From Candidatus Omnitrophota bacterium (GTDB lineage: Bacteria; Hinthialibacterota; Hinthialibacteria; Hinthialibacterales; JAKPRU01), in the NCBI GenBank assembly GCA_029570205.1, contig JAKQSI010000114.1, forward strand, positions 1 through 64,000: DNA of 64,000 nucleotides, read 5' to 3'. The notes below the pieces were generated by a model that worked only from the letters and a program-made list of their open reading frames with translations, did not search any database and was not told where the DNA came from. Shown here in pieces: positions 4,345-24,700 of this stretch. The translations under genes and the position numbers were made by a program. Numbering within the stretch: position 1 is the first letter of the stretch; every line of letters begins with the position of its first letter.

Positions 4345-5682
4345 TCAGGCATACGCCGGGTCCGAGGCTCGTGGCTCCCCGTCAAATTCGAGTTCAATCA
4401 CGTTCATGTACGGGTCCGGCGGGTAATCCGGAAATCCACGAAACCAAACCCGGTCTCCCTTCTGTTCGATGGTTGCCTCCTGGCCGGTCGACAAAATGCG
4501 GGCGGACACAACTTTGCTTCCACACCACGCAAAAGCGACCGTTGACCCTGGCCATCGCTGGATTAACAGATACACCCGGTCTCCGACCCGCGAGGCCAGT
4601 CCCAGCGCCGGGGCGCTGATGGGCGACGGCCCTGCGCCATAGATTGCTTTCCCATTTGCGCGCATCCATTGTCCGACATGGCGAAGTATCTCCACCGACT
4701 CAATGGGGAATTCCCCTTCTCCATCCGGACCGACGTTGAGGAGCAGATTCCCTCCCCCATCCACGCAGGTGGTCAGCAGACGGATGATTTCGTGAGGAGA
4801 CTTGTAGTTCCGGTCGTATTTCGCGTATCCCCATGTGCGGTTCATGGTATAGCAGGCCTCCCAGGGGCGAGTCTCCACACGAATGACATTTTCCGGTGTG
4901 CTGAAATCCTCTGCCAGACCCGCACGATCATTGATGAGAATACCCGGTTGCAATTCACGAACCGTCCGGTTGAGTTCTCCCGAGCGCCACAGCTCCGCTT
5001 TGTGTGGGTGCATCATGTCGTACCAGAGGATGTCCACGGTTCCGTATTGTGTGCAAATCTCGCGCACTTGCGCGTGCGCCTGCTCCACCTCCGAGCGATA
5101 AACCTCGTCCGGCTGAATGACACTATGAGGAATTGCCCCGGGGAACCGCCAATCCATCAGGGAATAATAAAATCCCACACGCATCCCCATTGTCCGGCAG
5201 GCATCGACAAACTCCTCAATAAAATCCCGCTTTGCCGCAGTCTTCGGCGCGGTGAAATCGGAGACCCTGCTGTCATACAGGCAAAAACCGTCATGATGCC
5301 GTGTGGTGATTACCATGTAACGCATCCCCGCATCCTGGGCCATGGCGACCCATTCCTTCGGATGGAAATGCTGCGGTTTGAACCGATCCGCCAGTTTCGC
5401 ATATTCCTCCAGGCCGAAATGCTCCTGGTAGAAAACCCACTCCCCACGCCCCAGGAGCGAATACAACCCCCAATGAATAAACATGCCGAAACGGGCCTCT
5501 CGCCACCATTGCAAACGATCCTTGGATTGATCCTTGGATTCAAGATTCATTGTTGAATGTTCCTTTTCTGTGAGAATCGTCGAGTTTCCACCGCGATCAA
5601 ATGCCGCGCATCCGGTTGTCGCTGCGGCGACTGCCGCGCTTTGCAGGAAATCTCTTCGTGGGATACCTCTTCGATGGTTCAT
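4345..5682 (-). CDS. GH29 alpha-L-fucosidase, Tat-exported
   Basis: This 445-residue enzyme is a family GH29 alpha-L-fucosidase, a retaining hydrolase that removes alpha-linked fucose from glycans. The N-terminus is a Tat signal (PRRDFLQSAAVAAA) followed by TTGCAA, a possible lipobox, so the enzyme is exported and may be lipid-anchored. Family hallmarks are RFGMFIHWGLYS, YMVITTRHHDGFCLYDS and VDILWYDMM, whose Asp is the expected catalytic nucleophile (about residue 220). GGNLLLNVGPDGEGEF closes the barrel. The C-terminal 100 residues look like a beta-sandwich accessory domain. Its neighbours (ThuA-like lipoprotein, GDPD, GH38) fit glycan breakdown. Confidence 0.92.
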   Translation of the reverse strand: MNHRRGIPRRDFLQSAAVAAATTGCAAFDRGGNSTILTEKEHSTMNLESKDQSKDRLQWWREARFGMFIHWGLYSLLGRGEWVFYQEHFGLEEYAKLADRFKPQHFHPKEWVAMAQDAGMRYMVITTRHHDGFCLYDSRVSDFTAPKTAAKRDFIEEFVDACRTMGMRVGFYYSLMDWRFPGAIPHSVIQPDEVYRSEVEQAHAQVREICTQYGTVDILWYDMMHPHKAELWRSGELNRTVRELQPGILINDRAGLAEDFSTPENVIRVETRPWEACYTMNRTWGYAKYDRNYKSPHEIIRLLTTCVDGGGNLLLNVGPDGEGEFPIESVEILRHVGQWMRANGKAIYGAGPSPISAPALGLASRVGDRVYLLIQRWPGSTVAFAWCGSKVVSARILSTGQEATIEQKGDRVWFRGFPDYPPDPYMNVIELEFDGEPRASDPAYA

Positions 5683-5813
5683 CAGGGTCTCCGATTTTCA
5701 CGGTCTCACATCGAATGGGCGCTGTCAATTCCAATCGGTCTGCCGGACCCCATGCCTTGCAAAGAGGACCTCAGGGTGGAAAATGGGCTATCTTTCAAAG
5801 AGAGGCAGGCAGG

Positions 5814-7409
5814 ATGAACACGTCGATACAGCCGTTGAGAACACGGATGAAATACCGGGCGTTCTTTATTCTCCTGGCAGTTTTTTTTACAGCGGACCCC
5901 TTCGCCGGAACAGTTTTCTTTCAGCCCATTGATCCGCCCCGAAAAACCCAGGTGATGGTGCATCGTGGCCTGATGTGCGCCGCGCCGGGCAACACCCTTC
6001 CGGCGTTCCAGGCCGCCATCGAAGCGGGATTCGAATGGGTGGAAACGGATATTCGCCTGACCCGCGACGGGCGCTATGTGCTGTTGCACAATGACACCGT
6101 GGACAGCACCACCGACGGCTCCGGCAAGGTTGAGGACATGCTTCTCGCCGATTTGAAAAAGTTGGACGCCGGAATCTGTTTCGCCCCCAGTTTCAAAGGC
6201 ACACGCATCCCAACCCTTCGCGAAGCGCTGGAGTTCTGCAAAGGAAAGATCAATCTCTACCTTGACTGCAAGGGCCGTATCAATCCCGAAACTCTGGTGA
6301 AAGACATTCGGGAAACCGGCATGGAGTCTCAGGTAATTGTCTTTGACGATCCCGATGTGCTGAAAGAGGTCCGGCGCATCTCCGGGGGCAGTGTGCCGAT
6401 CATGCCCAGCATCAATGACCGCCTGGAAGTGAAATACTGGATGGATAACCTTTCACCTCAGGCCGTCGAAGTTCATGCCGAACTGCTGACGCCCGAATTG
6501 GTCCGTGGGTTCCATGAGGTCGGTGTGACCGTGCAGGCACAGACATTGGGCAAACGCGATTGCCCGGAGGTATGGCGACGCTGCTTCGAGATGGGTGTTG
6601 ACTGGATCCAGACCGATCTCGGCGAGGAGGTGCTGGCCGAGTACGTCTTGTATCACACGGGTGCGAATTTTCCTGTAAAGATCTCTTCCCACCGAGGCGC
6701 AAATGAATTTGCGCCGGAGAATACGTTGGCCGCTTACGAAAAGGCTGCGAAACTGGGCGTAGATTTTGTCGAAATCGACGTACACACCACAAAGGACGGC
6801 GAACAGGTCTCCATTCACGACCATACGCTGGAGCGAACGACAAACGGGACCGGCGCGGTGTCGGATATCCGCTTCGAGGATCTGCGAAAACTCTCCGCCG
6901 GGGCCTGGTTCGGCGCCCCTTTTGCCGATCAAAAAGTTCCTACCGTCGATGAAATCTGTGAGTTGCTGAACGAGTTTGAAACAAAGACCGGAAGGGCGGT
7001 GGAATTGTATGTGGACTGTAAAGCCCCCAATCTGGAGAAACTCGCCGACATTCTCCGCAAGCACAGGAAACTGAGCGGTGCGGTCTTCTACGGGCATCCG
7101 GATAGCTTGCTGCTTCTGCGGAAATACGCCTCGGGGGCAAAACTCATGCCGCCGATGGGCAATCCGTCCGATTTGGAATTACGGGCCAGCCAAGTCAAAC
7201 CTTATGCGCTGGATACGCGGTGGTCGATTCTGTCACAGGAATTGATCTCCAACGCCCATAAGAAAAACATTCGAATCTTCTCGGATGCCATGGGAGATAA
7301 CGAAACGATCGAGCGCTATCGACAGGCCATTCACTGGGGAATCGACACGATCCAGACCGATTACATTCCGCGTGTGCTTCGGGCGATTGAGCTGGAGAGG
7401 CTGTATTGA
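5814..7409 (+). CDS. exported tandem-domain glycerophosphodiester phosphodiesterase
   Basis: The 531-residue product carries a signal peptide (MKYRAFFILLAVFFT) and two complete GDPD-type TIM-barrel domains. Domain 1 covers roughly residues 45-285 (VMVHRGLMCAAPGNTL, WVETDIRLTRDG, LLHNDTVD). Domain 2 covers 290-531 (ISSHRGANEFAPENTL, FVEIDVHTTKDG, SIHDHTLERTTNG). Both keep the HRG, E-x-D and H-x-D residues that bind metal and catalyse cleavage of glycerophosphodiesters to alcohol and glycerol 3-phosphate. The long upstream reading frame overlaps the divergent GH29 start, so the ATG at 5814 is chosen; an alternative ATG is at 5847. The substrate might be lipid head groups or teichoic-acid-like polymers. 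Confidence 0.85.
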   Translation: MNTSIQPLRTRMKYRAFFILLAVFFTADPFAGTVFFQPIDPPRKTQVMVHRGLMCAAPGNTLPAFQAAIEAGFEWVETDIRLTRDGRYVLLHNDTVDSTTDGSGKVEDMLLADLKKLDAGICFAPSFKGTRIPTLREALEFCKGKINLYLDCKGRINPETLVKDIRETGMESQVIVFDDPDVLKEVRRISGGSVPIMPSINDRLEVKYWMDNLSPQAVEVHAELLTPELVRGFHEVGVTVQAQTLGKRDCPEVWRRCFEMGVDWIQTDLGEEVLAEYVLYHTGANFPVKISSHRGANEFAPENTLAAYEKAAKLGVDFVEIDVHTTKDGEQVSIHDHTLERTTNGTGAVSDIRFEDLRKLSAGAWFGAPFADQKVPTVDEICELLNEFETKTGRAVELYVDCKAPNLEKLADILRKHRKLSGAVFYGHPDSLLLLRKYASGAKLMPPMGNPSDLELRASQVKPYALDTRWSILSQELISNAHKKNIRIFSDAMGDNETIERYRQAIHWGIDTIQTDYIPRVLRAIELERLY

Positions 7410-7609
7410 TTCGACATTTAGTTGCCGATGCTGACCAGCGCGTTGCTGGAGTCGTAAAACAGGTGTTCATCGACAAGACGCCAGACGTGCGTTCATGGAA
7501 CTGGGACACAGCCCGCCAAATTGACAATTTGTGGGGATTGGGATTTAATGACGAAACGATAAAGCCCGTCCGTCAAGATCATTCTGACCCATCCGTAAGA
7601 GGAAACCTT

Positions 7610-8893
7610 ATGAAAAAGATACTTTACGGAACAAAAGAGTTTGTGGAGATCTTCGCGCTTGTTGGGATTGTCAGCTTGGTATCTCCCGCGATTTCATCCG
7701 GCGGAACCGACACCGGATGGATCAAAAAAGATGGAAAAGACCTGTTTCCCATCGGGTGCTATGAATTGCCCAAAGAGGATGCAAAGCTTCAGGCCATGGC
7801 AGACGCCGGATTCAACCTGGTGCGCTGCAACAACCGGGAAGACCTGGATCGCGCACAGGAGGCCGGCATGATGGGCTGGATTCCCCTGAGCCTGCAAAAT
7901 GGCCCGACCGGGGACTTGCGGAAACTCGTTGAATCCGTCAAGGACCATCCCGCTCTTGCCGTCTGGGAAGGCCCGGATGAGGTTGTCTGGAATTTCACGG
8001 CATTCAGCGGCCTCTACAAAACCATGGGGGTCCATAAGGTTTCGGGAGAATGGTGGCTTCAAACCGAAAATGCCGTAAAATACGCGGAGGAACAGGCCCG
8101 CACGATCATTCCCAACATCCGCGAATCCATTGAGGTGATCCGCACACTGGACGGAAAAGACCACCCCGTATGGATCAACGAGGCCCTGAAAAGCGATGTG
8201 CGCTATGTGCGTCAGTACGTGGACTGGGTGGATATCACGGGCTGTGACATCTACCCTGTGAAGAAAGACGGACGAAACGTGGTTTCGGTGGGAGCGGCCA
8301 CGGAACGCTGGAACCGGACCGGCCGGGGCAAGCCGGTCTGGATGGTTCTGCAAGCCTTTTCCTGGCACGAACTCGGTGACGATTATAGCGCACGGGGAAT
8401 CGCCTACCCGACTTTCGACGAATCGCGATTCATGGCTTACGATGTTGTTAGCCATGGAGCCGGGGGCATTCTCTACTGGGGCTCTCATTACTTAAACTCC
8501 GAACCGTTTCGGCAGTCGCTTTACGCTCTCACCAATGAGTTGGCAATGTTGCAACCGTTTCTGACCGCGCCTGAAGTCGAAGGTGTCCGGGTGAATCTGA
8601 TCGACGATGAGGGGAACGAAGCCGTGCGTGGCGTCCGGATAAGCGCTCGACGGGCCGGAGACGATTGGATTATTGTGCTGGTAAATGAAGATGATTGCCG
8701 CCACATGGGCGTGGAAGTTACCGGCCTGAATGAATTGAACGGAAAGACCTTGCATTTGCTCTATGGCGCGGAAGAACTCGTTGTCGATCAGAACGAACTC
8801 ATTGCCCGTCTGCTGCCGCGGCAAGTGAAAGTGTATGCAACCGGTAGACAATGGGAGACAGACCGCCCGGTCGGCCGGGATTTCGCCGAATAG
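7610..8893 (+). CDS. exported glycoside-hydrolase-like TIM-barrel protein
   Basis: This 427-residue protein begins with a hydrophobic signal segment (IFALVGIVSLVSPAISS) and continues as a probable TIM barrel. It resembles clan-A-type glycoside hydrolases in layout: PIGCYELPKED, NLVRCNNREDLDRA, LAVWEGPDEVVWN, DWVDITGCDIYPV, VWMVLQAFSW, SHGAGGILYWGSHYL. The paired acids in EGPDE and the late LYWGS strand are plausible active-site positions, but I cannot assign a GH family or sugar. A small beta domain follows (last 100 residues). The reading frame extends upstream to 7406, but AGAGGAAACCTT just before the ATG at 7610 and the signal peptide support this start. It sits between the GDPD and GH38 genes on the same strand. 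Confidence 0.7.
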   Translation: MKKILYGTKEFVEIFALVGIVSLVSPAISSGGTDTGWIKKDGKDLFPIGCYELPKEDAKLQAMADAGFNLVRCNNREDLDRAQEAGMMGWIPLSLQNGPTGDLRKLVESVKDHPALAVWEGPDEVVWNFTAFSGLYKTMGVHKVSGEWWLQTENAVKYAEEQARTIIPNIRESIEVIRTLDGKDHPVWINEALKSDVRYVRQYVDWVDITGCDIYPVKKDGRNVVSVGAATERWNRTGRGKPVWMVLQAFSWHELGDDYSARGIAYPTFDESRFMAYDVVSHGAGGILYWGSHYLNSEPFRQSLYALTNELAMLQPFLTAPEVEGVRVNLIDDEGNEAVRGVRISARRAGDDWIIVLVNEDDCRHMGVEVTGLNELNGKTLHLLYGAEELVVDQNELIARLLPRQVKVYATGRQWETDRPVGRDFAE

Positions 8894-9016
8894 TCCCATA
8901 ACTACTACTTGTTGGCGCATGTCCCCCAATTCAGAGAAAAGATTAGTGTACACCGGATGTGTTTCAGCACACCCTTGCCGCGTGCAGACTCACCATCCGA
9001 AAGGGAGCAGAGTTAT

Positions 9017-12000
9017 ATGGCCACTCAAGGGATGAAGAATCTCGAAGCGCTTTATATCCGAAAAATACTGGACCGAGTCCGAGAAATCCGGGAACGGTTC
9101 ATTTACTCCGTGAGAGTTCCGGTAGAGGATGTTGCCATCGCAGAGACCATGGAGCATCTCTCGATTCGCGAGGCGAAACAACTCAAGTACAGGCGCGTGA
9201 AGGACGGGCACTCCTGGGGCCGGAATTGGGGCACAGCCTGGTTCCGCCTCCGAATCCGCATTCCAAAACAGTTCCGCGGGGAATGCGTGATGCTTCTGTT
9301 TGATCTGGAACGAAGCGAATCGCTGATTTTCCGCCGGAATGTACCTGTCCGGGGGCTGAGCTGGGCGCGCGAGGATTATCTTTTAACGGATTGTGCGCGA
9401 GGCGGCGAAACAATCGAGCTATATGTGGAGGCGGGGGCAAATGCGCGGCTCGGGGAGTTTCGTGTACGCACCATGCGTCAACCTGAAATCGCAATTCTTA
9501 ATCGTGAAGTATGGGAGGCGTACTGGGACCTCTCTGCCCTGGCCGACTTCATCGATCCGAATGTTCATTACAACTGGCTCAAAAAGCCTTATCCGGTTCT
9601 ACCGGATACCGATACCCGACGGGCACGGATTATTTTCGCTCTAAACCAGGCTGTAGATGTATTCGATTACGGCGATCCATCCCGCGAGGCCCTCCGCGAC
9701 CAGGCTCGGAAAGTGCGGGAGATTCTGAAGCCGGTATATGCCTGTCGCGCTCACGACTCCGCACAAGTCTGCGTCGCAATGGGACACGCCCATATTGATG
9801 TCGCCTGGCTCTGGCCGCTCTCCGAAACCGTGCGCAAAACCGGACGGACATTTGCAAATGTGTTGGAGTTAATGGATTGTTATCCAGATTTTACTTTTGT
9901 ACAAAGCCAGCCGCACCTGTATGAATTCGCGCGCGATCGTTACCCGGCTCTGTATCGGCAGGTTCGAGAACGGGTAAAGGAAGGGCGTTGGATTCCGGTC
10001 GGATGCACATGGGTCGAACCGGACTGTAATATCACAGGGGGCGAAAGCCTGGTTCGTCAGATTCTTTTCGGAACGCGTTTTTTCGAGCAGGAATACGGAA
10101 TCCGATCTTCTATCCTGTGGCTGCCGGATGCGTTCGGCTATCCCGCATCTCTCCCGCAGATTATGAAACGGAGCGGGATCGATTATTTTTTTACCACGAA
10201 GATATCCATCAACCAATTTACCCGCTTTCCATATCACTCGTTTTATTGGGAAGGGATCGACGGGAGTCGGGTACTGGCGCATCTTTTACCCAACGAAGAA
10301 TACAGTTCCGAAATGGAACCGTGGTTGATCCGCATGGGGGAAAACGACTACGCTGAAAAGGATCGCTCTCCTATTCAGATGCTCCTTTATGGCCGGGGAG
10401 ATGGAGGGGGAGGTCCCTCCCGGGATCACCTGGAACGGCTTAACCGTTACCGGGAGTTTGAAGGCTTGCCAAGGATCGAATCCGGGTCGCCTGAGGACTT
10501 TTTTGTCCGCCTGGAACGCGAGTCCGAGGATCTTCCCAAATGGGTCGGCGAACTCTATCTCGAGCTACATCGGGGCACATATACCACGCAAGCACATACA
10601 AAGAAATGTAATCGTCAGGCGGAATTTCAGCTTCGGGAGGCGGAAATCCTCTCGTCAATCAATATGCTGTGTGGGGGTAGATATGAACAGAAGCGAATAA
10701 ACGATGCGTGGAAACTGGTCCTCTTGAATCAATTCCATGACATTATCCCCGGCAGTTCGATTGACGAGGTCTATGTCGAATCGGACCGGCAATATGCAAC
10801 AGTCCTCAAGGAGGCGGCGGAAATATCCGGGGCCTCTTTCAGTGAAATTGCGAAAAGAATCGACACACGTGGAAATGGCTATGCGGTATTGGCCTTCAAT
10901 TCTCTATCCTGGGATCGCAAGGATATCGTAGCGGTTTCGGCGGAGGGTTTGGAGAGAAAAATCCCGTATATTGCCGTTGACTCGGATGGGGAGGAAATGC
11001 CGGTACAGATCGGCGCCGACGGTGTTGCGCGGTTTATCGGAAAGGTCCCCTCTCTCGGTCATAGTGTTTTTCATATTCGGAAAGGACAGGACGATTGTCC
11101 TTCCATCCACGCCGACCCACTCTTGATGGAAAATGACTATGTCCGAGTGTTATTTGACCGTCGGGGACGTATTCGGCAAGTGTATGACAAGAAACACGAG
11201 CGGGATGTATTGGCCCCGGACTCCCTGGGGAATCGGTTCATTCTATTTGAGGACAAGATGGCGAGCACCGGGGAGGCATGGGATATCGATATTTTCTACA
11301 ACGACAAACCGCTGGAGAGCGACGGTACATTCGAGACCGTCGAGGTCGTTGAGGGGGGACCCGTTCGTGCAGCCGTTCGGATCTCACGAACGATTAGTAA
11401 ATCGCGAATTTCGCAGGATGTTATCCTTCGCGCAGATTCTCCGCGAATCGACTTCGCAACCACGGTTGACTGGGGTAATGAGAAGGATGTATTATTAAAG
11501 GTAGCCTTTCCGGTGAACGTCCGTTCGGAGAAGGCACGCTACGAGATTCAATTCGGCAGTATCGAGCGGCCGACGCACTGGAATACCCCCTGGGATTTCG
11601 CCCGATTTGAGGTTCCTGCGCAGAAATGGGCGGACCTTTCCGAGGGAGATTACGGGGTTGCGCTGCTGAATGATTGCAAGTACGGATACGACATCCGGGA
11701 CAATGTCATGCGGCTGACATTGCTTCGCGCGCCGAAGGTTCCGGGGAAGACGGCGGATGTGAATAGGAGGCATGTATTTACCTATTCCCTTTTCCCGCAC
11801 GCCGGCGATTTCAGCGCCGGTGTAGTGAGGGAAGCGTATGAACTCAACGTACCGATTCGAACCATGAAGGTCGGCCATTCGGCAGGGGATCTGCGGCCGA
11901 AAATGGGATGGATGTCAATTAGCGGCCCGAATGTTATCATCGACACAATCAAGAAGGCAGAGGACGATTCCGGGATTATTGTCCGCCTTTACGAAGCGCA

Positions 12001-12175
12001 TGGCCGGCGCGGGCGGCATTCACTCGAAACGTCCTTGCCTGTCAAACGAGCCTTCGAGACCGACCTGATGGAAAATATGATTGGAGAGATGAACTTCAAA
12101 AAAGGCAAAATCGCCCTGGATATCAAGCCCTATGAAATTCGGACGGTGAAGTGGATGGTGACCGACCGGGACTGA
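9017..12175 (+). CDS. GH38 alpha-mannosidase
   Basis: The 1052-residue enzyme is a family GH38 alpha-mannosidase, a zinc-dependent retaining hydrolase. The catalytic domain starts with GHAHIDVAWLW, where His259/Asp261 lie in the zinc-binding motif. WLPDAFGYPASLPQI contains the expected nucleophile Asp371, and LVLLNQFHDIIPGSSIDEVY is the family's late catalytic-domain segment with a zinc-binding His. The N-terminal 240 residues form the usual beta-sandwich extension, and the C-terminal 400 are the beta-rich mannosidase domains. No signal peptide is visible, so it probably acts in the cytoplasm on imported oligosaccharides. AAGGGAG upstream of the ATG at 9017 supports this start over the in-frame codon at 8909. 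Confidence 0.93.
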   Translation: MATQGMKNLEALYIRKILDRVREIRERFIYSVRVPVEDVAIAETMEHLSIREAKQLKYRRVKDGHSWGRNWGTAWFRLRIRIPKQFRGECVMLLFDLERSESLIFRRNVPVRGLSWAREDYLLTDCARGGETIELYVEAGANARLGEFRVRTMRQPEIAILNREVWEAYWDLSALADFIDPNVHYNWLKKPYPVLPDTDTRRARIIFALNQAVDVFDYGDPSREALRDQARKVREILKPVYACRAHDSAQVCVAMGHAHIDVAWLWPLSETVRKTGRTFANVLELMDCYPDFTFVQSQPHLYEFARDRYPALYRQVRERVKEGRWIPVGCTWVEPDCNITGGESLVRQILFGTRFFEQEYGIRSSILWLPDAFGYPASLPQIMKRSGIDYFFTTKISINQFTRFPYHSFYWEGIDGSRVLAHLLPNEEYSSEMEPWLIRMGENDYAEKDRSPIQMLLYGRGDGGGGPSRDHLERLNRYREFEGLPRIESGSPEDFFVRLERESEDLPKWVGELYLELHRGTYTTQAHTKKCNRQAEFQLREAEILSSINMLCGGRYEQKRINDAWKLVLLNQFHDIIPGSSIDEVYVESDRQYATVLKEAAEISGASFSEIAKRIDTRGNGYAVLAFNSLSWDRKDIVAVSAEGLERKIPYIAVDSDGEEMPVQIGADGVARFIGKVPSLGHSVFHIRKGQDDCPSIHADPLLMENDYVRVLFDRRGRIRQVYDKKHERDVLAPDSLGNRFILFEDKMASTGEAWDIDIFYNDKPLESDGTFETVEVVEGGPVRAAVRISRTISKSRISQDVILRADSPRIDFATTVDWGNEKDVLLKVAFPVNVRSEKARYEIQFGSIERPTHWNTPWDFARFEVPAQKWADLSEGDYGVALLNDCKYGYDIRDNVMRLTLLRAPKVPGKTADVNRRHVFTYSLFPHAGDFSAGVVREAYELNVPIRTMKVGHSAGDLRPKMGWMSISGPNVIIDTIKKAEDDSGIIVRLYEAHGRRGRHSLETSLPVKRAFETDLMENMIGEMNFKKGKIALDIKPYEIRTVKWMVTDRD

Positions 12176-19376: not shown

Positions 19377-20834
19377 ATGAAAAGTGTTCTTGGATTATTC
19401 GGACCGATTCTTGTGTTTGCTGTTCTGGTAACCGCTTCGATTCCGACAGCGTCGGCGCAAGACACCAACGTATTCCGGGCGGGCGCGGCGAAGCTGGATA
19501 TCACACCGCGTCTGGGGCGCTCGTTTGCAGGGCACCTGGTGGATCACAAAGCGACGCATGTCCATGATCCGTTACACGCTCGAAGCCTCGTTATGGAGGA
19601 TGGAAAAACAAAAATTGCCATCGTTATTTGCGACTTGATCGGCATTGCTCAAAATGAGGTTTCCGAAGCCAAACGCCTTATTTCGGAACAAACCGGCATT
19701 CCCCCGGAATGCGTACTTATCGCCGGGACACACACCCATACCGGTCCGGCGCCCGTGCCGTGTTTCCAAAGCGATCCCGATCCGGAATACTTGAAATTCC
19801 TGGTCGTGCGAATCGCGGATAGTGTGCGCTGTGCGATCAATAACCTCCGTCCGGCGCGTGTAGGCTGGGGCTTGGGCCATGAGGAACGAATGGTGTTCAA
19901 TCGGCGATATTTTATGAAACCGGGGACCGTGCCGCCTGATCCATGGGGGCGCACGGAAGACCAGGTCAAAATGAATCCCGGATACGAGAATCCGAATGTA
20001 GTCAAACCCGCCGGACCCGTTGATCCGGATCTGACGATTCTTGCCGTTCAAGATACAGACGGATATCCGATCTCGGTTCTGGGCAATTACGCGCTTCATT
20101 ATGTCGGCGCGGGAAATGGATTGGAGGTCAGCGCGGATTATTTCGGCCAGTGGTGCAGGATCATGGAACAAAGCGGGGGAAAATATGACGAATCAAAACC
20201 CCCTTGTGTCGCCCTGCTCAGCAACGGCTGTTCGGGGAATATCAATAATGTCGATATCCGCCAGAAACTGATTCAGCCCCATCCCTATCACCAGATAAAT
20301 CGTGTTGCGCAGGCTGTGGCCGATGAAGCTATGCGGGTTTTGGGCGGGATAACCTATCGCGAATCGGTTCCATTGCAGGCAGCACAGGAAACAGTGGAAC
20401 TCGGAATTCGAAAACCCTCTTCCGGCGAGGTTCAAGAGGCCCAGGAAATTCTTAAGAAAGCAGGATCGGAACTGAAAGATATAACTGAGATCTACGCCCG
20501 GGAGACAGTTTTGATGGCGGAGATGCCGGAGAAGATATCAACAACCGTACAGGCAATCCGTATCGGCGATGCGGCAATTGCCACCTTTCCGGGAGAAGCG
20601 TTTGTGGAGTTGGGGCTTGAAATCAAAAAGAAAAGCCCATTTGAACGGACTTTCTGTGTCGAACTGGCAAATGACTACGTAGGATATATTCCAACCGAGG
20701 AAGCCTACAAACTCGGCGGGTATGAAACCTGGCGGGCACGATCCAGCCCGCTGCAGCCCGGTTCGGCAGAAAAACTGGTCGCTGCTGCCTTGGCGTTATT
20801 GAATACGGTTCACGAATCGTCAGGTGGACGGTAG
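19377..20834 (+). CDS. exported neutral ceramidase-like protein
   Basis: This 485-residue protein has a signal peptide (PILVFAVLVTASIPTASAQ). It matches the N-terminal domain of neutral/alkaline ceramidases: RAGAAKLDITPRLG at the start, VIVICDLIGI, and LIAGTHTHTGPAP, whose histidines would bind zinc, followed by HYVGAGNGLEVSADYFG and LSNGCSGNINNVD. True ceramidases cleave N-acyl sphingosine, but many bacterial homologues in polysaccharide-degrading lineages have unknown amidase substrates. It is shorter than the roughly 650-residue ceramidases because the C-terminal immunoglobulin-like domain is missing. The C-terminus EAYKLGGYE resembles the family's last barrel motif. Confidence 0.82.
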   Translation: MKSVLGLFGPILVFAVLVTASIPTASAQDTNVFRAGAAKLDITPRLGRSFAGHLVDHKATHVHDPLHARSLVMEDGKTKIAIVICDLIGIAQNEVSEAKRLISEQTGIPPECVLIAGTHTHTGPAPVPCFQSDPDPEYLKFLVVRIADSVRCAINNLRPARVGWGLGHEERMVFNRRYFMKPGTVPPDPWGRTEDQVKMNPGYENPNVVKPAGPVDPDLTILAVQDTDGYPISVLGNYALHYVGAGNGLEVSADYFGQWCRIMEQSGGKYDESKPPCVALLSNGCSGNINNVDIRQKLIQPHPYHQINRVAQAVADEAMRVLGGITYRESVPLQAAQETVELGIRKPSSGEVQEAQEILKKAGSELKDITEIYARETVLMAEMPEKISTTVQAIRIGDAAIATFPGEAFVELGLEIKKKSPFERTFCVELANDYVGYIPTEEAYKLGGYETWRARSSPLQPGSAEKLVAAALALLNTVHESSGGR

Positions 20835-21902: not shown

Positions 21903-22095
21903 CCCCAAGTCTCCGGATCGGGAATGGTAGCGCTCTTATGAGAGATCTCTCCAGGTGTGCGGATGCGAACACGCCTTTCCTCTCGTGACTTCCCTGTCGG
22001 CGCCATAACCCCGACGGTAAGATGGATTCGGCAACTCGGTGGCAGTGGGGCGAATCGGGGTCGGGGAAGAGATGACGACAAGGAGCACACCGACG

Positions 22096-22809
22096 ATGGA
22101 GCATTTGCCTTCTCTGTTGATGGGACTGGCTGGGTCCGCATGCTCCTGGGAAACCTTCGCCGGCTCTGTGCTGAGTCTCTCGTTGCGCAACCATGGCCGG
22201 ATTCGACGGCTGGTGGCGTTGATTCTCTATAGCGTGGGACATGGATTTACTTATCTGTTTCTGGGCGCTTTTGCCGGGATGGCGGGAAGAACCCTGCTGA
22301 AAGGTGGCGTTCTTACAAGCGCTCATGCCGGGATATTATTTTGTGCGGGGCTGATGATGTTGCTGATTTCCCTGGAGATGATGGGATTTCCCACCCGCCT
22401 GCATTTGCTGCACCATTTTCCGGGAGAAACAACCATCGAGCGGATTACCGCCCATTATCGCGAACGATTCGGAGAACTGACCCCGTTTTATCTGGGCCTG
22501 TTCAACGGCTTCTTGCCGCGTCCACTGGTATACGCAGGGCTGACGCTTGCATTCGCTTCGGGGAATGCGATCAATGGAATGGGGACCATGGCCTGGTTTT
22601 CCGTGGGCATGTTGCCGATCCTGTGGTGGGTTGGAACCAGCGGGTTTCTCATTTCACCGACGATGCGTTCACGGTTGATTCACGCCATGGCTATTGTTGT
22701 GCTCGGAGTCGGGTGCATCATGGTCTGGCGCGCTTTACCCATCCGTGCGGAGGGCGGTCTGCAAGTCACGACAGAGATGTCGGAGATGATCTTTACTCCC
22801 TCCCCATAA
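22096..22809 (+). CDS. SafE/TauE-like membrane protein lacking the HCxGMC motif
   Basis: This protein of about 237 residues has five or six transmembrane helices and resembles the short SafE/TauE-like (COG2836-type) proteins encoded beside copper ATPases in cbb3-oxidase maturation loci. The first helix LLMGLAGS matches the family, but the next residues are ACSWETFAGS where relatives have a His-Cys-x-Gly-Met-Cys-Gly motif, so the proposed metal- or thiol-handling residues are missing. Later hydrophobic segments include LYSVGHGFTYLFLGAFAG, PFYLGLFNGFLPRPLVYAG and MLPILWWVGTSG. AAGGAG is 11 bases before the ATG at 22096; an in-frame ATG at 22072 is also possible. Only 19 bases separate it from the P-type ATPase, so the two are probably one operon. 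Confidence 0.65.
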   Translation: MEHLPSLLMGLAGSACSWETFAGSVLSLSLRNHGRIRRLVALILYSVGHGFTYLFLGAFAGMAGRTLLKGGVLTSAHAGILFCAGLMMLLISLEMMGFPTRLHLLHHFPGETTIERITAHYRERFGELTPFYLGLFNGFLPRPLVYAGLTLAFASGNAINGMGTMAWFSVGMLPILWWVGTSGFLISPTMRSRLIHAMAIVVLGVGCIMVWRALPIRAEGGLQVTTEMSEMIFTPSP

Positions 22810-22828
22810 ACGTTCCGACGGAGAACTC

Positions 22829-24700
22829 ATGTTTACCGTTGAAACATGCGCCTATTGCCATTTGCCCATTTCCGCGAAAGCTGTCGAGCGGAGACTCAGC
22901 GGAACCACCCGTTTGTTCTGTTGCTATGGTTGTTTCCTGCTTTTTCAAATCACCACGCGAAGAAAACAGGAACGTTCGGGGAAATGGTTTTTGACACAGA
23001 TCGGTATCGGTACGTTTCTGACAATGTGTGTCATGCTGATCGGATGGGTTCTGGAAGAATTCCCGGCTCACCCATACGAAAAAGAAATTATTCTTTCCGC
23101 GAAATGGCTGATCTGGGCTTTGGCGACTTCGGTTCTGATTCTGATCGGATATCCGTTGCTCAAACGCTGCGTGTTGGCCCTGGCGAGCGGTTCATTTTTG
23201 ATTGAAGGGTGTATTGGCGTTGTTTGTGCTGTGCTGTATGGGTATTCGTTTGCGAATTTGTGCAATGGAAGAGAACCTCTCTATTTCGACACGGTGTGCG
23301 CAACCATGCTCTTAGTTACCTTGGGGAAGATCCTCGAGGCCACATCAAAATCCATAGCCGCGCAGGACATTCGCGAATTCCTGGGGCATGAAAAAGCGCC
23401 GGCGTTTCGGATCGATCAGGACAAAATAGCTCATACTACAGCGTTGCACCTGGAGCCGGGAGACCTGGTGCGTGTGCCTCCCGGATACACCATCCCGGCG
23501 GATGGGAAAGTTCTCGAGGGATGTTCGCGGATTCGGCGAACACCATTGACCGGGGAGCGGGAACCGGTGGTGTGCCGTGAAGGTGATGAAGTTCTTTGCG
23601 GCGGTAAGGTCATCGACGAAACGTTGACCGTTCAAGTGATCAAGACCGGAAAGGATACGGTTCTGGCAAGGTTGCTCTCGGTTGTGGAACGCTCTGTTCT
23701 GGTTCCGTCGAACCGACGGTATCTGGTGGATCAGGCGCTGCGGTTATTTCGGCCTCTCATTCTGGTTGCCGCGATCTGCGCGCTGCTGTGGTCGTGGCAG
23801 GAAAGCCGGATCGGTGCATGGGTGAACCTGCTGTCCGTCTTGGTGATCGCCTGTCCCTGTGCCCTGGTCCTGACAACCCCGATGGCCACGACTCTGGCCG
23901 TGGCACGAGCCGCGCGGGAAGGAATCCTGATCTCCGAAGCCGCCGCGATTGAGAAGATCTCCAATGTCAATGTCTGTATCTTCGACGAGACAGAACCGGC
24001 GGAGACGGGCGAGTCGCATTCTTACTCCGACCCGGATTGGAGCAAACGCGATATCTATACATTGACAGCGGATGGAACAGGCTCATCAACCGCCCTGGCG
24101 GAAGTATGCGACGTTCAAACAACAACGACTACTACCGCAACACTTTCCTCCCGAATCATTGCCACCTGCACACAATTACAGGCGAAAGGCCTTCGAACTG
24201 TTCTTTTGACAGGCCCGTCTTTCTTTACAGGCAAAGAGAAAATCTACCCGCCGGCGATTGACGGGTTCTACACAGGGATTTCATCTCAGGAGAAAGCGGA
24301 ACTTCTGCGTTCATACAGGGAACAGGGATATGTTACGGCCTGCGTCTCGGAATATCCCAGCGCGCCCGTATGGGCGTCGGATGCCGATATCCGGTTCACA
24401 ATCGGCGCGAACTACAAAGAGGATCTATTAACCAACCCGGTCACGTTTTTGGGAACCGACCTGGAACGGCTTCCCTGGCTGATCGATCTTTCTCATCGTG
24501 TGCTCCGAACCGTGAATTGGAACCTGGCCTGGTCCTCATTTTACAGCATTGTGGGGATGTTCGCGGCGGCGGCGGGGATGGTGGCCCCTGTTCTTGCTGC
24601 CGGGATTATGCTGCTGGGAGGAAGTCTTGTTGCAGGAAACACCGCACAGCTGCACAATTACCCAGGCCCATCGGAAAGTCATCCTTACACAGGACGGTAG
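22829..24700 (+). CDS. CcoI-like P-type ATPase with degenerate catalytic core
   Basis: The 623-residue product has the shape of a P1B heavy-metal ATPase of the CcoI/FixI type, which exports copper for cbb3 oxidase assembly. The N-terminus has CAYC and FCCYGC cysteine pairs. Helices follow, then an actuator domain with TPLTGEREPV (TGE at 241-243) and the membrane motif CPC (342-344). The ATP-using parts are degraded. The phosphorylation motif DKTGT reads DETEP at 386-390, TGD reads TGP at 461-463, the GDGxND position is VSEYPS at 506-511, and the HP motif of the N-domain is not found. That domain is also short and contains six Thr in a row. It should not pump by the normal cycle. It may be a metal-sensing or assembly scaffold, or a gene in decay, although the frame is fully open. 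It follows the SafE/TauE-like gene. Confidence 0.8.
   Translation: MFTVETCAYCHLPISAKAVERRLSGTTRLFCCYGCFLLFQITTRRKQERSGKWFLTQIGIGTFLTMCVMLIGWVLEEFPAHPYEKEIILSAKWLIWALATSVLILIGYPLLKRCVLALASGSFLIEGCIGVVCAVLYGYSFANLCNGREPLYFDTVCATMLLVTLGKILEATSKSIAAQDIREFLGHEKAPAFRIDQDKIAHTTALHLEPGDLVRVPPGYTIPADGKVLEGCSRIRRTPLTGEREPVVCREGDEVLCGGKVIDETLTVQVIKTGKDTVLARLLSVVERSVLVPSNRRYLVDQALRLFRPLILVAAICALLWSWQESRIGAWVNLLSVLVIACPCALVLTTPMATTLAVARAAREGILISEAAAIEKISNVNVCIFDETEPAETGESHSYSDPDWSKRDIYTLTADGTGSSTALAEVCDVQTTTTTTATLSSRIIATCTQLQAKGLRTVLLTGPSFFTGKEKIYPPAIDGFYTGISSQEKAELLRSYREQGYVTACVSEYPSAPVWASDADIRFTIGANYKEDLLTNPVTFLGTDLERLPWLIDLSHRVLRTVNWNLAWSSFYSIVGMFAAAAGMVAPVLAAGIMLLGGSLVAGNTAQLHNYPGPSESHPYTGR

Follow-up and report, generated by a model that had tools for sequence, protein, structure and literature searches.

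A CcoI-like P-type ATPase without its catalytic motifs, conserved beside a SafE-type neighbour in a bacterial genus

Catalytically dead enzymes, pseudokinases among them, are a familiar phenomenon. Among open PubMed Central papers, we found no report of a bacterial or metal P-type ATPase that was retained after losing its whole catalytic apparatus; a prior mention in the P-type ATPase family catalogue of Saier and others is possible. The Plasmodium guanylate cyclase PfGC beta carries a degenerate P4-ATPase domain in which most signature residues are lost, and a regulatory role of the ATPase domain in related cyclases is discussed in the same paper (PMC6592433). Copper ATPases of the CcoI/FixI group (CopA2-type) act in the biogenesis of cbb3 oxidases and combine an N-terminal metal site, a characteristic membrane layout, an actuator (A) domain with a TGE loop and a CPC motif in the fourth core helix (TM-MBS1). 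In R. capsulatus CcoI, according to PMC8475189, hydrolysable ATP is required for the movement of Cu(I), the N-terminal sites are important, yet not essential, and a second membrane site is formed by an N-M-S triad (TM-MBS2).

The protein described here, designated pseudo-CcoI, is encoded in the window (i.e., the whole stretch of 64,000 nucleotides that was analysed) together with a SafE/DsbD_2-type membrane protein, and the coordinates of their features are collected in Table 1. Pseudo-CcoI shares with CcoI/FixI the membrane layout, the A domain with its TGE loop and the CPC motif, and its N-terminal Cys cluster is a candidate for the N-terminal metal site; the N-M-S site is damaged. Unlike CcoI/FixI, it lacks the DKTGT, TGD and GDGxND motifs and the N domain, and it has no genomic link to a cbb3 oxidase, COX1 and FixO each being detected in none of the three genomes of the genus. 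Like the ATPase domain of PfGC beta, it is a P-type ATPase body that outlived its signature residues; PfGC beta is, however, eukaryotic, of the lipid-flippase type and fused to a cyclase, whereas pseudo-CcoI is a stand-alone bacterial metal-ATPase body.

Table 1. Features of the pseudo-CcoI locus and position of a Cu/Zn efflux permease gene in the same genome. Positions are those of the window unless another sequence is named; residue numbers refer to pseudo-CcoI.
Feature	Position	Strand	Evidence and remarks
SafE/DsbD_2-type membrane protein, motif cysteines lost	22039..22809	+	PF13386 80.3 bits; 19 bases 5' of pseudo-CcoI
GGAG, putative ribosome-binding site	22820..22823	+	GGAGAACTCATG; same in 3/3 congeners
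Pseudo-CcoI, decatalysed CcoI-like P1B ATPase homologue, 623 aa	22829..24700	+	Open frame from ATG, 623 codons; PF00122 (A domain/core) 131 bits, Pfam cut-off 28.1
N-terminal Cys cluster CxxC...FCCxGC, residues 7-35	22847..22933	+	5/5 Cys present in 3/3 congeners
Actuator (A) domain, residues 191-290	23399..23698	+	dN/dS 0.059; 16/26 conserved columns
TGE loop, retained, residues 241-243	23549..23557	+	Sequence, alignment, 3/3 congeners
CPC membrane metal site, retained, residues 342-344	23852..23860	+	Sequence, alignment, 3/3 congeners
DETEP replacing DKTGT, residues 386-390	23984..23998	+	3/3 congeners
Relaxed linker, probably disordered, at N-domain place, residues 391-438	23999..24142	+	dN/dS 0.416 (388-440); pLDDT <50
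TGP (AGP in congener G001) replacing TGD, residues 461-463	24209..24217	+	Alignment, congener comparison
SEYPSA replacing GDGxND, residues 507-512	24347..24364	+	Alignment, congener comparison
Final two membrane helices (model: 547-581, 587-609)	24467..24655	+	Second Cu site: Asn to Ser573; conserved Ser to Gly597
SO_0444-type Cu/Zn efflux permease, C-terminal CopZ-like HMA domain	L097:4421-5722; G000:C100 about 88420-89721	-	Beside cydAB

The first-pass annotation of this DNA had described an open, CcoI-like frame of 623 codons with CPC, TGE and N-terminal Cys residues, and this is confirmed in the sequence, where the N-terminus reads C7-x2-C10 ... F-C31-C32-x-G-C35. The exchanges of DKTGT for DETEP and of TGD for TGP and the absence of GDGxND and HP motifs, also claimed there, are borne out by an alignment with 27 intact P1B ATPases and by a deletion of about 80 residues. 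All 27 were picked for carrying DKTGT, so that its occurrence in 27/27 is a selection criterion and cannot gauge how rare the loss of this motif is. In the alignment, the closest intact relatives have SGD where pseudo-CcoI has TGP, and the intact homologues have GDGIND at the place of its SEYPSA. The Asp of the phosphorylation motif is separated from the TGD/TGP position by 75 residues in pseudo-CcoI versus 139-176 in 26 of the 27 intact homologues (105 in the remaining one, L017); the N-domain stretch is thus about 80 residues short, and the position of the SEHP-type (HP) motif lies inside the deleted part. The HAD-core residues D386, T388 and K489 are still present. At the second membrane Cu site, M594 is retained and the Asn and Ser are changed, such that the claimed retention of transport motifs stands for CPC, TGE and the Cys cluster but fails for N-M-S, and the shell would not form a complete transport site. 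The losses are unevenly distributed: of the columns that are 90% conserved in the intact homologues, pseudo-CcoI matches 17/20 in M3-M4, 16/26 in the A domain, 9/14 in M5-M6 and 10/40 in the P/N region. Judged from its sequence, the protein has lost the ATP-using apparatus of a P1B pump and has retained the metal-holding shell, which supports the CcoI ancestry and the loss of the entire phosphorylation cycle proposed earlier.

Profile searches gave a similar picture. NCBIfam heavy-metal ATPase models match pseudo-CcoI, all of them below their cut-offs (e.g., TIGR01525 at 203 bits, cut-off 346), PF12156 matches the N-terminal Cys cluster weakly (19.0 bits, cut-off 27), and the Pfam Hydrolase (P-domain) model gives no match at E <= 1; the intact L081 and L082, by contrast, match both PF00122 and Hydrolase. 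When a profile made from intact P/N regions was run against all frames of the region, it matched only the pseudo-CcoI frame, at 21.7 bits (303.7 for the intact L005). A frameshift or assembly artefact was ruled out, since three separate metagenome-assembled genomes are concordant and no alternative frame encodes a P/N domain.

An AlphaFold2 model of pseudo-CcoI, built from 24 sequences, has a mean pLDDT of 69.7 and a pTM of 0.67. With an alignment of four sequences the pLDDT was 33, and the higher value was reached by including 20 P1B proteins from viral-contig loci; the alignment consists mostly of intact ATPases, and the model therefore leans toward the ATPase fold. The pLDDT mostly exceeds 70 in residues 51-390 and 440-610 and falls below 50 in residues 1-50, which include the N-terminal Cys cluster, and in residues 391-438. 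Foldseek and VIA-align group the model with copper ATPases, the best being CopA 7r0g_B (Z 32.9, rmsd 5.3, 538 residues). Pseudo-CcoI is thus like the CopA-type Cu(I) exporters (7r0g, 3rfu) in its predicted fold over 538 residues and unlike them in its sequence (23% identity) and in the lack of the ATP-binding domain. The eight-helix P1B membrane layout is present according to the model helices and hydropathy, and the A domain and the rump of the P domain are predicted to fold still.

The frame and the same motif losses occur in all three genomes of the genus (the window genome, G000, and its congeners G001 and G002), i.e., the changes are conserved among congeners. Identity to the window protein is 87% in G001 and 97% in G002, where the copy is spread over two contigs; this sample of three genomes includes two very close ones, and all are drafts of 90-94% completeness. 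All three have DETEP, lack TGD and GDGxND, and retain CPC, TGE and the five N-terminal Cys residues; they also have an identical start codon, GGAG site and 19-base spacing from the SafE gene on the same strand; the former GDGxND loop differs among them (SEYPSA or SEFPCT). Between the window and G001, the dN/dS of pseudo-CcoI is 0.113 (Nei-Gojobori; bootstrap 95% CI 0.085-0.149; dS 0.63), comparable with the 0.042-0.137 of five neighbouring genes. Regionally, dN/dS is 0.063 in the N-terminal metal-binding domain, 0.111 in helices 51-190, 0.054 in M3-M4, 0.051 in M5-M6 and 0.107 in the P rump (441-560); the A domain and the linker that replaces the N domain are given in Table 1. In 500 runs of a neutral simulation at the same divergence, each lineage acquired 16 stops in the median and at least 6, versus none observed. 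The dN/dS and the lack of stops speak strongly against neutral decay, which the first-pass annotation had named as an outcome that would refute its reading. In the close pair of the window and G002 (dS about 0.08-0.09), the dN/dS of pseudo-CcoI is 0.15-0.19, with few changes, and exceeds that of purA (0.058) and SafE (0.083), which points to possible relaxation. The engine is lost, yet the gene is preserved like ordinary genes in three related species, and pseudo-CcoI therefore probably has a new job.

The gene upstream has undergone a parallel change. The cysteines of HCxGMCG and LPC, which we take to be family-defining for SafE, are present in the SafE/DsbD_2 (PF13386) relatives of L081 and L082 and missing in the operon neighbour of pseudo-CcoI in 3/3 congeners. 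Despite the lost cysteines, the SafE gene is under purifying selection (dN/dS 0.137 between the window and G001), and its product appears to be a second decatalysed member of the operon. The neighbourhoods of four SafE/DsbD_2 matches in the phylum (L077-L080) and of the P-type loci L075, L076 and L084, inspected by eye, held no syntenic intact pair.

Intact relatives of pseudo-CcoI were encountered farther afield. Among 386 genomes, the best-scoring homologues outside the genus are in G111, G377 and G108 (31-34% identity, jointly covering residues 6-396). In G111 and G108, COX1 (245.8 and 237.4 bits) and FixO/cytochrome c are followed by an intact CcoI, which adjoins a SafE/DsbD_2 gene. The loci of the closest intact homologues, L081 and L082, are operons with COX1, FixO and SafE. 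These operons (L081:134-6884 and L082:3503-9939) are cbb3-like, with FixO fused to cytochrome c domains; they also include a very short FixP_N-like frame, and their subunit make-up looks unusual. Because the intact relatives sit beside oxidase genes and SafE, the SafE-CcoI pair of the window looks like a remnant of cbb3 biogenesis. In a tree, pseudo-CcoI joins at the node between L005+L006 (89) and the remaining 25 intact homologues (97), a placement that would agree with an origin from a cbb3 module and, on account of the long branch (1.86), serves as a lead only. A wider search for decatalysed copies (P0001, 386 genomes, E <= 1e-52) returned the genus and G108, G111 and G377 only; no further decatalysed copy turned up in this set, G108 and G111, the two whose motifs were read, being intact. 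A scan of the contigs of close relatives for exact 8-residue patterns yielded three loci, all in two congeners.

The genus appears to differ from most sampled members of its phylum in respiration. In the 14 phylum genomes sampled, COX1 was detected in 0/3 of the genus versus 10/11 of the others, and SCO1-SenC in 0/3 versus 9/11; neither FixO nor multicopper oxidase (PF07732) was found in any of the 14. None of the phylum genomes sampled thus shows cbb3, and an ancestral operon, together with a cbb3 oxidase in the ancestor, would have to be reconstructed from distant relatives outside the phylum alone. Full-length CydA is present in all three genomes of the genus and in G011, with weak partial matches in nine others and none in G009. 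The cydAB genes of the window genome lie on the same contig as pseudo-CcoI, about 67 kb off, beside genes whose translations, inspected by eye, look rubrerythrin-like, ferritin-like, peroxiredoxin-like and Hcp-like. A neighbouring permease gene, whose product carries a CopZ-like domain, scores above the cut-off of the SO_0444 Cu/Zn efflux model (351.8 versus 300 bits), with HMA matches in both congeners as well. S. oneidensis needs SO_0444 to grow when stressed with Zn or Cu (PMC3219624). With this permease, the genus could export copper even though it lacks a P-type pump. Neither another P1B ATPase nor the catalytic CcoI that the earlier annotation suggested looking for was found in the three draft genomes; as these are 90-94% complete, a second pump or an oxidase could have been missed. 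A compensating catalytic copy was likewise rejected: apart from pseudo-CcoI, PF00122 matches no protein of G000 or G002, and the single further one of G001 (G001:C371; L083:1-2682, minus strand) is a class II (Ca-type) and not a metal ATPase, its best model being TIGR01522 at 723.9 bits, under the cut-off of 798.3. This class II ATPase was not found in G000 or G002, and the estimated contamination of G001 is 8%.

The account that we favour, with odds slightly on its side, is that of an orphaned copper-loading pair that was decatalysed and has since been retained as a membrane unit that binds metal independently of ATP. In the ancestor, CcoI (a CopA2-type Cu ATPase) and SafE would have loaded copper into a cbb3-type oxidase. 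The heme-copper oxidase would then have been lost in the lineage, leaving cytochrome bd as the terminal oxidase found, whereupon CcoI may have lost its ATP engine (the N domain, the motif for Asp phosphorylation and the two Mg-ligand motifs) and SafE its cysteines, while purifying selection continued to act on the two genes of the operon. The N-terminal Cys cluster, the CPC site or both might take up Cu(I) or a soft metal like it, and the A domain and what is left of the P domain might relay the bound or unbound state, or hold the metal for a partner, probably SafE. Direct support comes from the motif losses, their conservation, purifying selection, the co-degeneration of SafE and the lack of a detectable oxidase in three drafts, with the fold as predicted; from these we infer the sequence of the losses, the binding of metal, the contact with a partner and the new role. 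Of the interpretation given in the first-pass annotation, the retention and conservation of the shell are supported, whereas the copper sensor, chaperone or assembly platform that it envisaged would go beyond these data, and the genus has no detectable heme-copper oxidase to assemble. We would rank a sensor, buffer or chaperone platform ahead of a scaffold or passive conduit. More narrowly, it is slightly less likely than not that a SafE-CcoI module, stripped of its chemistry after oxidase loss, became an ATP-independent metal-responsive membrane device, in which the pump body and not pumping is selected.

Metal binding would be incidental in a purely structural scaffold, e.g., one that serves SafE or the assembly of cytochrome bd. 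Both operon proteins are indeed conserved though their catalytic or redox residues are lost, and a full-length bd oxidase is present in 3/3 genomes, but every cysteine of CPC and of the N-terminal cluster is retained, beyond the needs of a scaffold, and the linkage to the distant cydAB is weak; we regard this as rather unlikely. Also unlikely is a passive, channel-like permease in which, ATP gating being gone, Cu(I) runs down its gradient or passes to SafE. The constraint on the eight-helix membrane part and CPC (0.054 in M3-M4, 0.051 in M5-M6) and the weakening of the second, tight ion-holding site would suit such a conduit, whereas the A domain with its TGE, superfluous for a simple conduit, is equally constrained (0.059), and the genus already has a dedicated SO_0444-type exporter. 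That CcoI without an oxidase is a slowly degrading relic is improbable: the linker dN/dS (0.42), the variable former GDGxND loop and the slightly raised dN/dS between the window and G002 are in its favor, but the overall value is low, stops and frameshifts are absent from three genomes, and start codon, ribosome-binding site and operon spacing are conserved. Least credible, and extremely improbable, is an active pump with non-standard catalytic residues. Although D386, T388 and K489 of the HAD core are retained, neither Mg-binding motif is left, the N domain is missing, G001 has AGP at the TGP position and the former GDGxND loop varies; as the Mg ligands, the Lys-Thr-Gly-Thr context and the N domain are absent, the ATP cycle should not run.

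If the narrower reading, a metal-responsive device made from the stripped module, is true, pseudo-CcoI would be a bacterial pseudo-P-type ATPase whose conformational body is under selection, and the loss of its engine would be tied to a clear respiratory change from heme-copper oxidase to cytochrome bd. Such a protein would allow one to ask which properties of a pump body (metal sensing, domain movement, partner binding) serve without pumping. In G011, another member of the taxonomic class, L048 (G011:C12:54868-55386), a PF00122 match with one in-frame TGA, may be a broken P-type ATPase. Near the pseudo-CcoI locus, the window also encodes glycerophosphodiester phosphodiesterase, GH38 alpha-mannosidase and neutral-ceramidase-like genes (5601-12175 and 19377-20834).
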